Positions 41,357 through 46,913 of a stretch of 64,000 nucleotides of DNA are shown here, piece after piece. The notes beneath the pieces were generated by a model that saw only the letters and a program-made list of their open reading frames with translations, was not told the origin of the DNA and did no database searches. Made by a program: the position numbers and the translations under genes. Within the stretch, counting starts at the first letter, position 1. Each line of letters begins with the position of its first letter. The DNA is from Pseudoxanthomonas daejeonensis (GTDB lineage: Bacteria; Pseudomonadota; Gammaproteobacteria; Xanthomonadales; Xanthomonadaceae): contig NZ_PDWN01000008.1 of assembly GCF_010093205.1 (NCBI RefSeq), forward strand, positions 1 to 64,000, written 5' to 3'.

Positions 41357-41752
41357 ATGGCGGTGCAGGCCTGTCCCTGCGGCAGCGGCCTGGCGTATCG
41401 GCAGTGCTGCGGTCGCTGGCACGACGGCGAGCCGGCGCCGGATGCCGCGATGCTGATGCGCTCGCGTTACAGCGCCTACGTGCTGAAGCTGCGCGACTAC
41501 CTGCTCGCCACCTGGCATCCGGCCACGCGGCCACCGGCGGACGAACTGGGCCTGGAAGACGCGCCCGGCGCGCGCACCGCATGGCTGGGGCTGGAAGTGA
41601 AATCGCACCGGCCGACCGGGGCGGACACCGCCGAGGTCGAGTTCGTCGCCCGCTTCCGGGTCGGCGGAGGCCGTGCCCAGCGCCTGGCCGAACGCAGCCG
41701 CTTCGAACGCATCGACGGACGCTGGTATTACCGCGACGGTGACCTGGGCTGA
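41357..41752 (+). CDS. YchJ family protein with N-terminal SEC-C-like zinc motif
   Basis: 131 residues. N-terminal metal motif CPCGSGLAYRQCC (CxCx8CC, SEC-C type), then the YchJ domain: 'AAMLMRSRYSAYVLKLRDYL', 'LLATWHPATRPP', 'LGLEVKSHRPTGADTAEVEF' and 'RSRFERIDGRWYYRDGDL'. An NTF2-like fold is known for this domain; biochemical role is unknown. It lacks the second SEC-C motif that E. coli YchJ has at its C-terminus. Starts eight bases after folE, probably in the same transcript. Confidence 0.9.
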   Translation: MAVQACPCGSGLAYRQCCGRWHDGEPAPDAAMLMRSRYSAYVLKLRDYLLATWHPATRPPADELGLEDAPGARTAWLGLEVKSHRPTGADTAEVEFVARFRVGGGRAQRLAERSRFERIDGRWYYRDGDLG

Positions 41753-41820
41753 GCCGCCGCGCCGGTTGACTTCCGGCAGGTCACCCCGGCTCCGCGCCCG
41801 CTTAGAGTGGCGCGGCACCC

Positions 41821-43140
41821 ATGAGGAAGACCGGCATGAACAGCCCCGCCCCGCCCGTATCCCCGCCGCCTCGCAGGCCGCCTGGCCTGTTGCGTCGCCT
41901 GTTGCGCAGCCTGGGCTGGACGGCGCTGGTGCTGCTGGTGCTGGCCGCGCCGACGCTGGCCTACCACGCCCGCTGGAGCTGGCCGCGCGCCGTCGTGCCG
42001 GCGGTGGGGACGGCGCAGGAACAGCAGCGCGCTGCGGCGGGCATGGATCCGGAACTGGCCGCGCGGTTGATGGCGATCGTGCGCGACGCCCGTGCCACGT
42101 CCGGCCTGCCGTCGCTGTCGGCGGCGGTGGCGCGCACCGACGGACTGGACTGGGCCGGCGCCAGCGGCTGGGCCGACATCGATCGCGGCCAGGCCGCGGG
42201 CGTGGCTTCGCGCTACCGCACCGGCAGCATCGCCAAGCCGATCACCGCGGTGGCGATGATGCGCCTTGCCGAAGCCGGCGCGCTCGACCTGGATGCACCC
42301 GGCGCGGATGCGGTCGCCGGCCTGCCCCCGGGGCTGGCGCCGCTGACCGCGCGGCAGCTGGCCTCGCACACCGCCGGCGTGCGCCACTACTCGCCCATGC
42401 CCTACGGCTGGCTGTGGCCGGGCTGGTTCGAGGCCAACTCGCAGCGGCACTACCCCAGCGTGGAGGCCGGGCTGGCGATGTTCGCCGACGACCGCCTGCG
42501 TTTCGCGCCCGGCACCGGCTTCCAGTACTCCACTTTCGGCTATTCGCTGCTGTCGAGGCTGCTGGAGGGCGCGTCCGGACGCCCGTTCCCGGAACTGCTG
42601 GCCGCGCAGGTGTTCGCGCCGGCCGGGATGACCGGGACCGCGGTCGACACGCCCGACGCGATGCCCGACCGGGTCGCCTTCTACGTGGGCGAGGGCGGCC
42701 GCTATACCGCCGCGCGACCGGTCGATTCGAGCTTCCGCATCGCCGGCGGCGGCATGGTCTCCACGCCCGCCGACCTGGCGCGCCTGGGCGTGGCCTTGCA
42801 GGACGGCCGGCTGCTGTCGGCCGAAGGCATCCGGGCGATGTGGACCGCGCAGCCGCTGGCCGATGGCAGCGCCAACCCGCAGAACTACGCGCTGGGCTGG
42901 CGGGTGGACCAGTCGACGCGGCTGTTCGTCGACGGCCGGCCGTTGCAGGTGGTCCACCACGGCGGCACCCAGGCCGGCGCCGCCGCCTTCCTGCTGCTGG
43001 TGCCCGAACAGGGGCTGGCGGTGGCAGTGATGGCCAACTCCATCAGTGGCCGTGCGCAGGTGCAGGACACCGCCCTGGTGCTGGCGCAGGAGCTGCTGCA
43101 GGTGCCGGCGAAAGTGGAAGCAACTCCCGGCGCGGACTGA
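41821..43140 (+). CDS. Membrane-anchored serine hydrolase, beta-lactamase/LACTB-like fold
   Basis: 439 residues. One N-terminal membrane anchor (about 28-46, LGWTALVLLVLAAPTLAY), Pro-rich before it, then a class C beta-lactamase-like domain. Catalytic SxxK is Ser136-Ile-Ala-Lys139 in YRTGSIAKPITAVAMMRL; 'LASHTAGVRHYSP' follows; the Tyr motif is in 'GTGFQYSTFGYSLLSRLLEG'; the third motif is HHGGTQAGAAAFLL. This wording matches the LACTB/EstB-type group of peptidases and esterases rather than true beta-lactamases. Active site in the periplasm. Start could also be MNSPAPP (41836), which has AGGA upstream. Confidence 0.9.
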   Translation: MRKTGMNSPAPPVSPPPRRPPGLLRRLLRSLGWTALVLLVLAAPTLAYHARWSWPRAVVPAVGTAQEQQRAAAGMDPELAARLMAIVRDARATSGLPSLSAAVARTDGLDWAGASGWADIDRGQAAGVASRYRTGSIAKPITAVAMMRLAEAGALDLDAPGADAVAGLPPGLAPLTARQLASHTAGVRHYSPMPYGWLWPGWFEANSQRHYPSVEAGLAMFADDRLRFAPGTGFQYSTFGYSLLSRLLEGASGRPFPELLAAQVFAPAGMTGTAVDTPDAMPDRVAFYVGEGGRYTAARPVDSSFRIAGGGMVSTPADLARLGVALQDGRLLSAEGIRAMWTAQPLADGSANPQNYALGWRVDQSTRLFVDGRPLQVVHHGGTQAGAAAFLLLVPEQGLAVAVMANSISGRAQVQDTALVLAQELLQVPAKVEATPGAD

Positions 43141-43192
43141 GTGCGGCGCGCGTCGTGGCGAGCGTCGTGAACGCGGGCCACGCCGCGCGCCC

Positions 43193-43198
43193 TAGAAT
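43193..43198 (+). promoter_or_regulatory. -10-like TAGAAT before the transglycosylase gene
   Basis: TAGAAT, a 5 of 6 match to TATAAT, 13 bases before the ATG at 43212. GGAG at 43214-43217 could instead serve a GTG start at 43227. Confidence 0.4.
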
Positions 43199-43211
43199 GC
43201 GATGGCAGGCC

Positions 43212-45407
43212 ATGGAGACGGCAGCCGTGCACGCCCCCACTCTTCCAATACGCGTTCCCGCCCCGGTGCTTGCGCTGCTGCTGGCGCTGCCGTTCCCGGC
43301 GTGGGCGCAGGACGCCGCCTTCCAGCGTTGCCTGGCGGCGATGCAGCCGCAGGCCGCCGCGCGCGGGATCGATGCGGCCAGCTTCGCCCGCTACACCGCC
43401 GACCTGCAGCCCGACCCGACCGTATTGCCGCTGCTCGACGCGCAGCCGGAGTTCACCACGCCGATCTGGGACTACCTCGCCGGGCTGGTCGACGACCAGC
43501 GCGTGGCCGACGGCCGCGCCATGCTGGCGACCCACCGCGACCTGCTGGCGCGGCTGCAGGGCGAGTACGGCGTCGATCCGGCCACCGTAGTGGCGGTGTG
43601 GGGCGTGGAAAGCGACTACGGCCGGGTCACCGGCAAGCGTCCGCTGCGCGTATCGCTGGCCACGCTGGCCTGCGAGGGCCGGCGCCAGGCATTCTTCCGC
43701 GGCGAGTTCCTGGCCCTGCTGTCGCTGCTGCAGGCGGGCGACCTCGCCGATCCGCAACTCACCGGCTCGTGGGCCGGCGCGTTCGGGCAGACCCAGTTCA
43801 TTCCGACCACCTATGCGCGCATCGCCGTCGATGGCGACGGCGATGGACGTCGCGACCTGGTCGCGAGCATTCCCGATGCGCTGGCGTCGACCGCGAACTA
43901 CCTCGTGCGCGCCGGCTGGACCGCCGACCAGCCGTGGGGCTACGAAGTGAAGCTGCCCGCCGGCGTCGATGCGTCGCTGGCCGGCCGCACCCAGCGCCGA
44001 CCGCTGGCAGACTGGATCGCGCGCGGCGTCACCCGGGTCGATGGCACCGCACTGGCCTCCTCGTCGACGCCTTCGGCCCTGCTGCTGCCGGCCGGTCGAG
44101 AAGGACCGGCGTTCCTGGTCTTCGGCAACTACGACGCGATCTACGCCTACAACGCGGCCGAGAGCTACGCGCTGGCGATCGCGACCCTTGCTGACCGCCT
44201 GCGCGGCGGCAGCGGGATTGTTACCGCGTGGCCGACGGCCGATCCGGGCCTGTCGCGCGCGCAGCGCAAGGATCTGCAGTCCCTGCTGCTCGCGCGCGGC
44301 CACCCCATCGGCCAGGCCGACGGCATGGTCGGCATCGCCACCCGCCAGGCGATCGCGGTCGAGCAGCAGCGGCTGGGCATGCAACCGGTCGACGGCCGCG
44401 CCGGACAACGCATCCTCGACGCATTGCGCGCGGCTGCCGGGCCGGCGCCACTGCCGGCGAGCACGGCGTTCGCGTTGCCCGCCGCGTATCCTGCATTGCT
44501 GCATTCGCCCTCACCCACCACCCGCAAGGCGCTGAAGAAAATGCACGAGGTTCCCGGCCTGGCCCTGGGCAAGTTCCAGGGACTGGATGCTTTGCTGGTG
44601 GATACGCCGCTGGCGAAGGCGGCGGTGTCGCTGTTCGGCGGGCAGGTGGTGTCGTTCGTGCCGAGCGGCCAGGAGGACGTGTTCTGGCTGTCGCCGCTGC
44701 GCGCCGCGCTGCCTACGCCGATCCGTGGCGGCACCCCCGTGTGCTGGCCCTACTTCAGCCGCCAGGGCCAGGCCAACGACGTGCCGGCGCACGGCTTCGT
44801 CCGCACCCTGTCCTGGCAGCTTGTGGCCGCGCGTCGCGAAGCCGATGGCACCCTGGAACTGGAACTGGAACCCCCCCCGCTGCAGGACCTGTCGCTGCGC
44901 CTGCGCATGCAGCTGCGCATCGGTCGCACCCTGGAGCAGCGTCTGGTGACGCAGAACACCAGTGGCCAGCCCGTGCGCTTCACCGAGGCCCTGCACAATT
45001 ACTTCCGCGTCGCCGACGTGGAGCAGGTGCGCATCGAAGGCCTCGAGGGCCAGCCCTTCCTGGACAAGAACGATGGTGGCAACCGCCACGTCCAGCAGGG
45101 CGAATGGAACCTGCACGATCCGCGTGACCCGGGCCGTGCCGACCGCCTGTTCCCGGGAGCGGGTGGCAGCTACCGGCTGTTCGACCCGGGCCTGCGCCGG
45201 CGCATCGACCTGCAAGTGAGCGACGGCCGCACCGCGATCGTGTGGAACCCGGGCGAGGCCGGCGCCGCGCGCATGGCCGACGTCGGGCCGCACTGGCGCC
45301 AGTTCGTGTGCCTGGAGGCGGGCAACGCCGGCCCTGACGTGGTCGAGCTGGCGCCGGGCGCGACGCATACGCTGGTGCAGACGATTTCGGTCGCACCGCT
45401 GTTGTAG
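43212..45407 (+). CDS. Lytic murein transglycosylase (MltB family) fused in frame to D-hexose-6-phosphate mutarotase
   Basis: A single open frame of 731 codons. Residues about 10-30 are a signal peptide (VPAPVLALLLALPFPAWAQ); about 35-335 an MltB/SltB lytic transglycosylase domain with catalytic Glu133 in VWGVESDYGRVTG, 'GSWAGAFGQTQFIPTTYARI', 'DGDGDGRRDLVASIPDALAS' and 'NYDAIYAYNAAESYALAIA'; about 347-412 a peptidoglycan-binding domain (SRAQRKDLQSLLLARGHPIG). A 30-residue Ala/Pro linker then leads with no stop into a complete YeaD-type mutarotase (Met444 to the end). A periplasmic murein enzyme joined to a cytoplasmic sugar-phosphate enzyme is unexpected. Either the stop has been lost, or the mutarotase is mainly made from its own start at 44541. 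Start alternatives: 43197 or GTG 43227. Confidence 0.75.
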   Translation: METAAVHAPTLPIRVPAPVLALLLALPFPAWAQDAAFQRCLAAMQPQAAARGIDAASFARYTADLQPDPTVLPLLDAQPEFTTPIWDYLAGLVDDQRVADGRAMLATHRDLLARLQGEYGVDPATVVAVWGVESDYGRVTGKRPLRVSLATLACEGRRQAFFRGEFLALLSLLQAGDLADPQLTGSWAGAFGQTQFIPTTYARIAVDGDGDGRRDLVASIPDALASTANYLVRAGWTADQPWGYEVKLPAGVDASLAGRTQRRPLADWIARGVTRVDGTALASSSTPSALLLPAGREGPAFLVFGNYDAIYAYNAAESYALAIATLADRLRGGSGIVTAWPTADPGLSRAQRKDLQSLLLARGHPIGQADGMVGIATRQAIAVEQQRLGMQPVDGRAGQRILDALRAAAGPAPLPASTAFALPAAYPALLHSPSPTTRKALKKMHEVPGLALGKFQGLDALLVDTPLAKAAVSLFGGQVVSFVPSGQEDVFWLSPLRAALPTPIRGGTPVCWPYFSRQGQANDVPAHGFVRTLSWQLVAARREADGTLELELEPPPLQDLSLRLRMQLRIGRTLEQRLVTQNTSGQPVRFTEALHNYFRVADVEQVRIEGLEGQPFLDKNDGGNRHVQQGEWNLHDPRDPGRADRLFPGAGGSYRLFDPGLRRRIDLQVSDGRTAIVWNPGEAGAARMADVGPHWRQFVCLEAGNAGPDVVELAPGATHTLVQTISVAPLL
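44541..45407 (+). CDS. D-hexose-6-phosphate mutarotase (YeaD-like), possible separate start
   Basis: 288 residues from the internal ATG, equal to the family's usual length (E. coli YeaD 294). It interconverts anomers of glucose-6-phosphate and related sugars. Text: 'LDALLVDTPLAKAAVSLFGG', 'QEDVFWLSPLRAALPTPIRG', 'GTPVCWPYFSRQGQANDVPA', HGFVRTLSWQL, 'FTEALHNYFRVADVEQVRIE' and 'VVWNP'-type ending (here TAIVWNPGEAGAARMADV) with Glu in 'FVCLEAGN'. It shares the frame of the transglycosylase with no stop between. AAGGCG lies about ten bases before this ATG and a TATCCT hexamer at 44487-44492 could be a promoter. The TAG stop lies within a REP element. Confidence 0.8.
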   Translation: MHEVPGLALGKFQGLDALLVDTPLAKAAVSLFGGQVVSFVPSGQEDVFWLSPLRAALPTPIRGGTPVCWPYFSRQGQANDVPAHGFVRTLSWQLVAARREADGTLELELEPPPLQDLSLRLRMQLRIGRTLEQRLVTQNTSGQPVRFTEALHNYFRVADVEQVRIEGLEGQPFLDKNDGGNRHVQQGEWNLHDPRDPGRADRLFPGAGGSYRLFDPGLRRRIDLQVSDGRTAIVWNPGEAGAARMADVGPHWRQFVCLEAGNAGPDVVELAPGATHTLVQTISVAPLL

Positions 45408-45635: not shown

Positions 45636-46913
45636 GTGGATCATCCTTTGCAGCACAGGCCCGGCGCGCGGCGCGCGGCGCTGGTCTTCATCTTCATCAC
45701 GGTGCTGATCGACGTGCTGTCGTTCGGCGTGATCATCCCGGTGCTGCCGCACCTGGTGGAGGAATTCACCGGCGGCGACATCGTCAGCGCCGCGCGCTGG
45801 GTCGGCGTGTTCGGCATGGTCTTCGCCGCGGTGCAGTTCGTGTCCACGCCGGTGCAGGGCGCGCTTTCGGACCGTTTCGGTCGGCGCCCGGTGATCCTGT
45901 TCTCCTGCCTGGGACTGGGCCTGGATTTCGTGTTCATGGCGCTGGCCACGTCGCTGCCCATGCTGCTGGTCGGCCGGATCATCTCGGGGGTCGCCTCGGC
46001 CAGCTTCACCACCGCCAACGCCTACATCGCCGACGTCACCGCGCCGGAGAAGCGGGCGAAGAGCTTCGGCATGATCGGCGCGGCGTTCGGCCTGGGCTTC
46101 GTCATCGGTCCGCTGATCGGCGGCTGGCTGGGCGGAATCGACCTGCGCCTGCCGTTCTGGTTCGCCGCCGGACTGGCCCTGCTGAATTTCCTGTACGGCT
46201 GGTTCGTGCTGCCCGAGTCGCTGCCGCCCGAGCGCCGCGCGCCGCGCTTCGATGCCTCGCATGCCAATCCGTTCGGTGCGCTGGCGCTGCTGCGCAGCTA
46301 CCCGCAGGTGTTCGGCCTGGCCGCGGTGGTGTTCCTGGCCAATCTGGCCCACTACGTGTACCCGAGCATCTTCGTGCTGTTCGCCGACTACCGCTTCCAG
46401 TGGGGTCCGCGCGAAGTGAGCTGGATGCTGGCGCTGGTGGGCGTGTTCAGCATCGTGGTCAACGTCGGCCTGGTGGGACGGACGGTGAAAGCGCTGGGCG
46501 AACGCCGCACGCTGCTGTTCGGGCTGGCCTGCGGTGTCGCCGGCTTCTTCATCTACGGGCTGGCCGACAGCGGCTGGCTGTTCATGGTCGGTCTGCCGGT
46601 GAGTGCGCTATGGGCGCTGGCCTCGCCGGCAACGCAGGCGTTGATCACCCGCCAGGTCGGACCCGAAGTGCAGGGCCGCATCCAGGGCGCGCTGATGAGC
46701 CTGACCAGCCTGGCCGGCATCATCGGGCCACTGTTGTTCGCCAACGTGTTCGCGCTGTTCGTCAGTGCCAGCGCACCGGCGCAGCTTCCGGGGGCGCCGT
46801 GGTTCCTGGCGGCGCTGCTGCTGGCCGGCGCGTGGGTCGTGGGCTGGCGCTATGCGCGCCCGGCACCGGCGGCCACGCACGAAGGCGCAGCCACCGGTGG
46901 CCCGGGTCACTGA
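45636..46913 (+). CDS. MFS transporter, TetA/TCR-like drug:H+ antiporter family
   Basis: 425 residues, 12 membrane helices, GTG start. MFS motif A is GALSDRFGRRPVIL between TM2 and TM3; TM4-5 reads 'LVGRIISGVASASFTTANAY', IADVTAPEKRAKSFGMIGA and GLGFVIGPLIGGWLGG, the wording of the TetA(A-H) and TCR/Tet group of DHA1 antiporters. Such proteins expel tetracycline or other small molecules, but many chromosomal members have other or unknown substrates, so resistance should not be assumed. No TetR gene is adjacent. A leader hairpin stands upstream; the PepSY gene converges, leaving only 3 bases between stops. Confidence 0.88.
   Translation: MDHPLQHRPGARRAALVFIFITVLIDVLSFGVIIPVLPHLVEEFTGGDIVSAARWVGVFGMVFAAVQFVSTPVQGALSDRFGRRPVILFSCLGLGLDFVFMALATSLPMLLVGRIISGVASASFTTANAYIADVTAPEKRAKSFGMIGAAFGLGFVIGPLIGGWLGGIDLRLPFWFAAGLALLNFLYGWFVLPESLPPERRAPRFDASHANPFGALALLRSYPQVFGLAAVVFLANLAHYVYPSIFVLFADYRFQWGPREVSWMLALVGVFSIVVNVGLVGRTVKALGERRTLLFGLACGVAGFFIYGLADSGWLFMVGLPVSALWALASPATQALITRQVGPEVQGRIQGALMSLTSLAGIIGPLLFANVFALFVSASAPAQLPGAPWFLAALLLAGAWVVGWRYARPAPAATHEGAATGGPGH

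Follow-up and report, generated by a model that had tools for sequence, protein, structure and literature searches.

A conserved lytic transglycosylase–mutarotase fusion in Pseudoxanthomonas and its relatives, with a candidate internal start for a second, cytoplasmic mutarotase

In Pseudoxanthomonas daejeonensis, one open reading frame joins an exported lytic transglycosylase of the MltB family, a peptidoglycan-binding domain, and a YeaD-like aldose/hexose-6-phosphate mutarotase. The fusion is real and conserved among related genomes, and it belongs to the already known family of XAC4296 from Xanthomonas citri. We consider it probable that the full-length form is exported and that, in most lineages, a second, cytoplasmic mutarotase is produced from an inner start kept within the fused frame. 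Whether the gene is truly nested, with a periplasmic full-length product and a cytoplasmic mutarotase made from a ribosome-binding site preserved since before the fusion, appears evenly balanced on the comparative sequence evidence. What is new here are the exported descendants of the fusion and the comparative evidence for the embedded start.

Results and Discussion

Architecture of the fused gene

We analyzed a window of 64,000 nucleotides (positions 1 to 64,000 of contig NZ_PDWN01000008.1), in which the fused gene (P0001) and its parts lie on the forward strand at 43212–45407. Its translation gives 731 residues with a stop codon at the end only. A signal peptide (residues 6–32, 43227–43307), with cleavage after Ala-Trp-Ala as judged by eye, is followed by the SLT_2 transglycosylase domain (residues 37–328, 43320–44195; Pfam E-value 1.4e-105) and a PG_binding_1 domain (residues 349–405, 44256–44426; 7.4e-8). 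The alignments divide the linker into a variable Ala/Pro stretch (residues 406–417, 44427–44462) and a more conserved part (residues 418–443, 44463–44540), which in most sequences reads T-x-F-x-L-P and then Q/H-S-P. The mutarotase domain (44541–45404) closes the frame, with an Aldose_epim match at residues 467–725 (1.2e-30). Translation and domain search thus bear out the order of parts given in the initial annotation. The transglycosylase scored 366.6 bits with the NCBIfam model MltB_2 (TIGR02283), passing its curated cut-off of 248.45, and the previously highlighted Glu133 (43608), which we take to be the catalytic glutamate, is present in all 44 aligned fused homologues. Codon-position GC holds one phase across the junction between the two enzymes. 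GTG at 43227 is more likely the true start than ATG at 43212, with anti-Shine-Dalgarno pairing of −6.4 kcal/mol versus −2.1 and a Shine-Dalgarno-like GGAG upstream. Inverted repeats of at least 14 nt within 60 nt were not found in the fused gene. The frame is also open far upstream across a serine hydrolase gene, as a 1244-aa ORF (41673–45407), which is probably an effect of high GC content.

Distribution of the fusion and earlier descriptions

The full-length fusion is uninterrupted in seven of 17 genomes of the genus Pseudoxanthomonas, in 22 of 159 genomes in a draw from the family (the 22 falling into eight genera), and at 70 of the best 80 of 164 loci encoding relatives in named genomes. 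The family count combines 17 full-length uninterrupted matches with five genomes of genus g7, in which two matches share one open frame, and the 80 loci are the closest ones, which tilts that sample toward close relatives. The rest of these 80 are one fusion truncated where its contig stops and nine loci without a transglycosylase match in the stretch examined, one of which (L119) begins inside the gene and lies on the same contig as G008. Elsewhere in the genus, seven genomes carry the mutarotase but lack this transglycosylase, the second match in them being a paralogue of 36–40% identity; G013 carries both enzymes as separate genes with the mutarotase upstream; in G008, the fusion is cut by contig ends, with its parts in different frames; and in G011 (57% complete), the gene is broken by frame changes. 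One further full-length match in the family (G045) has three stops inside. In a class-wide draw of 274 genomes (E 1e-60, at most four candidates scored per genome), the full-length matches were the source genome and G044, both in the family. P0001 shares 64–85% full-length identity with 29 homologues, a set to which XAC4296 itself does not belong.

The initial annotation had set a true fusion against a recently lost stop or a sequencing error, and these counts support the former and not the latter: the same uninterrupted frame occurs in other genomes, which rules out chance and sequencing error. The idea that a sequencing or assembly error removed a stop codon therefore has practically nothing left to recommend it, since 70 of the best 80 of 164 named loci and, in the family, 22 of 159 genomes share the open frame, the codon phase is continuous across the junction, and X. 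citri is reported to yield an RT-PCR product of about 2200 bp for XAC4296 (PMC9143381). Two record names deserve a remark. A Stenotrophomonas-type fused gene in a record titled Bacillus subtilis SK7B5 (L165:2334–4430) is nested among Stenotrophomonas in the tree and is probably assembly contamination; the copy in a record titled Xanthomonas sp. XNM01 (L120) groups with Luteimonas and Pseudoxanthomonas copies, and its record name may be wrong.

The fusion was published as XAC4296 (XAC_RS21660), with homologues reported in Xanthomonas, Stenotrophomonas, and Pseudoxanthomonas (PMC9143381), and the same locus is discussed as XAC_RS21660 in PMC6304161. P0001 likewise joins SLT_2, PG_binding_1, and aldose 1-epimerase in a single frame and has full-length homology to the Xanthomonas and Stenotrophomonas fusions. 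The former article also describes the modules as overlapping genes in X. albilineans, and its authors read the X. citri deletion phenotypes partly as effects on central carbon metabolism and the epimerase as a central-carbon enzyme. Its main text, to the extent available, contains no mention of a signal peptide, linker, start codon, internal start, Shine-Dalgarno sequence, ribosome, or export, and mentions the periplasm or cytoplasm in connection with muropeptides or references only. A literature search found no second paper using the name XAC4296, and searches on the enzyme pair, exported mutarotases, and Xanthomonas initiation profiling listed no other paper on the fusion. In the literature found, seen in part, the fusion is known and the puzzle of a supposedly cytoplasmic enzyme joined to an exported one is not addressed; to this, the present analysis adds the descendants that export the mutarotase alone and the candidate embedded start.

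A candidate internal start at Met444

The ATG at 44541–44543 (Met444) was confirmed where the initial annotation had placed it, with AAGG, a candidate embedded ribosome-binding site, upstream at 44526–44529. Unfused relatives start their mutarotase at or near the aligned place: in a 4-nt ATGA overlap with the transglycosylase gene (G129, G031, G104), 40 nt past the transglycosylase stop behind AAGGAG (G085/G136), or, in G045, about 48 nt past the stop as counted by eye, the frame being shared and three stops intervening. The G045 start, in GAAGGCATCCCC-ATG, is close to AAGGCATCCCCC-ATG within fused Xanthomonas genes. Among 44 thinned fused genes, the codon equivalent to 444 is ATG in 26, GTG in five, and TTG in two, giving a start in 33; among 79 distinct fused genes, it is ATG in 56 and GTG or TTG in eight, giving a start in 64 with none in the other 15. 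Universal conservation of Met444 was rejected, as 11 of the 44 genes have no start codon there.

Codon choice around this site is unusual at the level of the clade. In Shine-Dalgarno excess over synonymous shuffles, residue 444 ranks first of 680 columns (z −4.7), with a mean of −3.06 for the 33 genes with a start versus +0.43 for the 11 without. When weighted by 11 lineages, which were made by hand, columns 442–446 take the first five ranks, 444 coming second. Column 444 is 600th in the two lineages that have no start (TTG does occur in two of their genes), 5th in the start-bearing lineages that lack the CGG-AGC motif, and 4th in the Pseudoxanthomonas lineage (including L120, no start). In the 24 genes encoding Arg-Ser at the site, the Arg codon is CGG in all 24, with CGG accounting for 12% of Arg codons, and this is the best kept of nine rare-consensus columns among 393; a Ser TCG follows with 96%, so rare codons are kept elsewhere too. 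A looser set of 28 genes has CGG in 24, AGG in one, and AGA in one of 26 Arg codons, and 39 conserved Arg columns average 10% CGG, the next highest reaching 42%. The signal is uneven: nine of the 33 start-bearing genes have no Shine-Dalgarno excess, P is below 0.1 in only 15 of the 33, and the encoded amino acids largely dictate the AAGG in Xanthomonas proper. A test on independent pairs, too few with three on supported branches and five in all, was not significant. P0001's own copy has a Shine-Dalgarno sequence no stronger than synonymous shuffles (excess −0.1, P 0.46). The TATCCT upstream of Met444, noted initially, found no support as a promoter, a simple consensus scan of 44200–44700 giving no sigma-70-type match.

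At the clade level, and without the codon bias in P0001's own copy, these observations suggest that a single gene gives two products in most lineages. The Met444 start likely gives an additional product alongside the full-length frame; the initial suggestion of a separate mutarotase made from Met444 thereby gains support from the codon comparison, at the clade level, as an extra product and not as an alternative that replaces the fusion. A simpler account, in which there is one exported bifunctional protein and the Met444 site survives from the former gene start without being used, seems to us unlikely, though it is the most serious competitor. It would accommodate the 11 of 44 fused genes without a start codon, the existence of exported stand-alone relatives, and the lack of Shine-Dalgarno excess in P0001. 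However, a relic should decay, and with within-lineage pS of 0.29–0.43 in the conserved linker and 0.17–0.39 in the mutarotase, the rare Arg codon is nonetheless kept in 24 of 24 genes, and the Shine-Dalgarno excess is missing where the start is missing.

A second stretch, at residues 129–139 (43596–43628, GVESDYG motif), also has a Shine-Dalgarno-like synonymous excess without an ATG. Residue 138 ranks fourth in the unweighted scan and 139 is also high; ATG occurs at residues 138–139 in none of the 44 genes, and another start-type codon occurs at 139 in about half.

Exported and split relatives

Eight relatives have no adjacent transglycosylase, namely seven Pseudoxanthomonas loci, which correspond to the seven genus genomes lacking that enzyme, and Luteimonas sp. 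4-12. By eye, the mutarotase opens with a lipobox-like sequence in seven of them and with a signal peptide in the eighth (L111). The fusion linker is recognizable in all eight, with T-x-F-x-L-P exact in five and one residue off in three, followed by QSP or HSP in seven, all but Luteimonas. In a mutarotase tree of 63 rows, which leaves out 34 fused rows of more than 95% identity, five loci removed by hand, and nine further fusions from the genome searches, the eight exported copies lie among the fused genes, and at least five changes of state are needed. Forcing all eight outside the fused clade was rejected (p-AU 0.0002), as was forcing out the split pair G085/G136 (p-AU 0.0003), with groups chosen after the tree was seen. 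Keeping G045 together with G068 outside was not rejected (p-AU 0.31); the unfused arrangement of G045 may be ancestral or a later split.

Because the trees derive the eight signal-bearing copies from the fusion, the mutarotase seems to have been kept exported, and so an export signal would accompany it where the transglycosylase is gone. For the same reason, the earlier statement that the membrane normally separates the two enzymes at work is not supported in this lineage. A crude hydrophobicity test detected a strong N-terminal hydrophobic stretch in 41 of the 44 fused genes; L115, among the three others, had been shortened by trimming of the sequence. Export is not always needed, since the split mutarotase of G085/G136 has no signal sequence. 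The pN/pS ratio is 0.55 for exported stand-alone copies (15 pairs from six of the eight loci) versus 0.19–0.37 for five groups of fused genes, which suggests weaker constraint on the former. In L111, a 33-nt stretch encoding part of the signal peptide (L111:3374–3406) matches the P0001 transglycosylase domain at 82% (E 0.001) and may be a leftover of the deleted transglycosylase part.

The exported copies also bear on a further reading, in which the full-length protein is translated, the cytoplasmic mutarotase from Met444 is the one that matters, and the exported copy is a by-product. The inner-start signal across the clade and the unfused, signal-less mutarotase behind the transglycosylase in G085/G136, G129, G031, G104, and G045 would suit it. 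We nevertheless regard it as improbable, given that eight relatives export the mutarotase without any fusion and that the Stenotrophomonas group, mostly without the inner start, keeps a constrained mutarotase (pN/pS 0.27).

The mutarotase domain

His527, Arg505, Arg531, His595, Asp602, and Glu702 are invariant in the 44 fused and eight exported copies, and position 517 holds Arg or Lys; a catalytic role of the domain is therefore probable in the fused and the exported form alike. The Aldose_epim domain is YeaD-like, its best solved relatives being the aldose 1-epimerase-related 2hta (E 1.6e-33), presumably the Salmonella protein, and the hexose-6-phosphate mutarotase 2ciq (E 2.7e-16), presumably yeast YMR099c. 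Both chains lack a transglycosylase, and we take both enzymes to be cytoplasmic. His595 and Glu702 align with His159 and Glu264 of 2ciq (numbered by hand), which we assume to be catalytic there. Conversely, soluble lytic transglycosylase B3 (5anz, 420 residues) and lytic murein transglycosylase 7qvd (380 residues) align with P0001 residues 6–407 and 35–408, respectively, and their chains are too short to hold a mutarotase as well. The genome carries two more Aldose_epim genes, one of them GalM-like but under that model's cut-off, so P0001 is not its sole epimerase. Transglycosylases leave 1,6-anhydro ends, which lack a free anomeric center, so the two enzymes need not act in sequence. An AlphaFold model of P0001 has a mean pLDDT of 70.7 and a pTM of 0.50; the mutarotase domain is mostly above 80, the conserved linker is at about 50–73, and the transglycosylase part, from an input alignment of 30 rows, is poor, so the model supports no particular packing of the linker or arrangement of the domains.

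A possible path from two genes to one

The explanation that we favor, of an exported fusion with a second, cytoplasmic mutarotase in most lineages, would begin with two genes, one for a transglycosylase and, downstream of it, one for a mutarotase lacking a signal sequence, which came into one frame in an ancestor common to Xanthomonas and Stenotrophomonas. The full-length product would be exported by the signal peptide of the transglycosylase, carrying the mutarotase into the periplasm, where the peptidoglycan-binding domain might place it near peptidoglycan. Most lineages might have retained, within the fused frame, the ribosome-binding site and start codon that the mutarotase had before the fusion, and the conservation of the codons suggests that a second, signal-less mutarotase could be made from them in the cytoplasm. 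Some lineages would have lost the inner start and make the exported form only; others may have lost the transglycosylase and kept a mutarotase with its own signal peptide or lipobox; and in at least one lineage, the fusion may have split, with a return to a signal-less mutarotase.

In Salmonella, mrcB, clpB, infB, and other genes have in-frame alternative starts yielding two proteoforms, some with a predicted different location (PMC11005335). The likeness lies in two proteoforms from one frame, which in P0001 are a candidate only. Unlike in those cases, the short form here would be the product of an entire, once separate gene that lies downstream of an enzyme with a signal peptide, as read from sequence. 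The relatives, with their detached exporters, split non-exporters, and fused copies that seemingly keep the old start, amount to a natural experiment that makes it directly testable whether genes have fused while still giving the original product, and they raise the question of what role a mutarotase has in the periplasm.

Neighboring genes

Between a YchJ-like gene and the fusion lies a PF00144 serine hydrolase (41821–43140), AmpH-like below the cut-off; of this gene and the transglycosylase domain, only short pieces align with the same place in L111. Downstream, an MFS transporter (45636–46913) scored 302.7 bits with the Tet(A)/Tet(B)/Tet(C) model, below its 475-bit cut-off, and is therefore not called a resistance gene.
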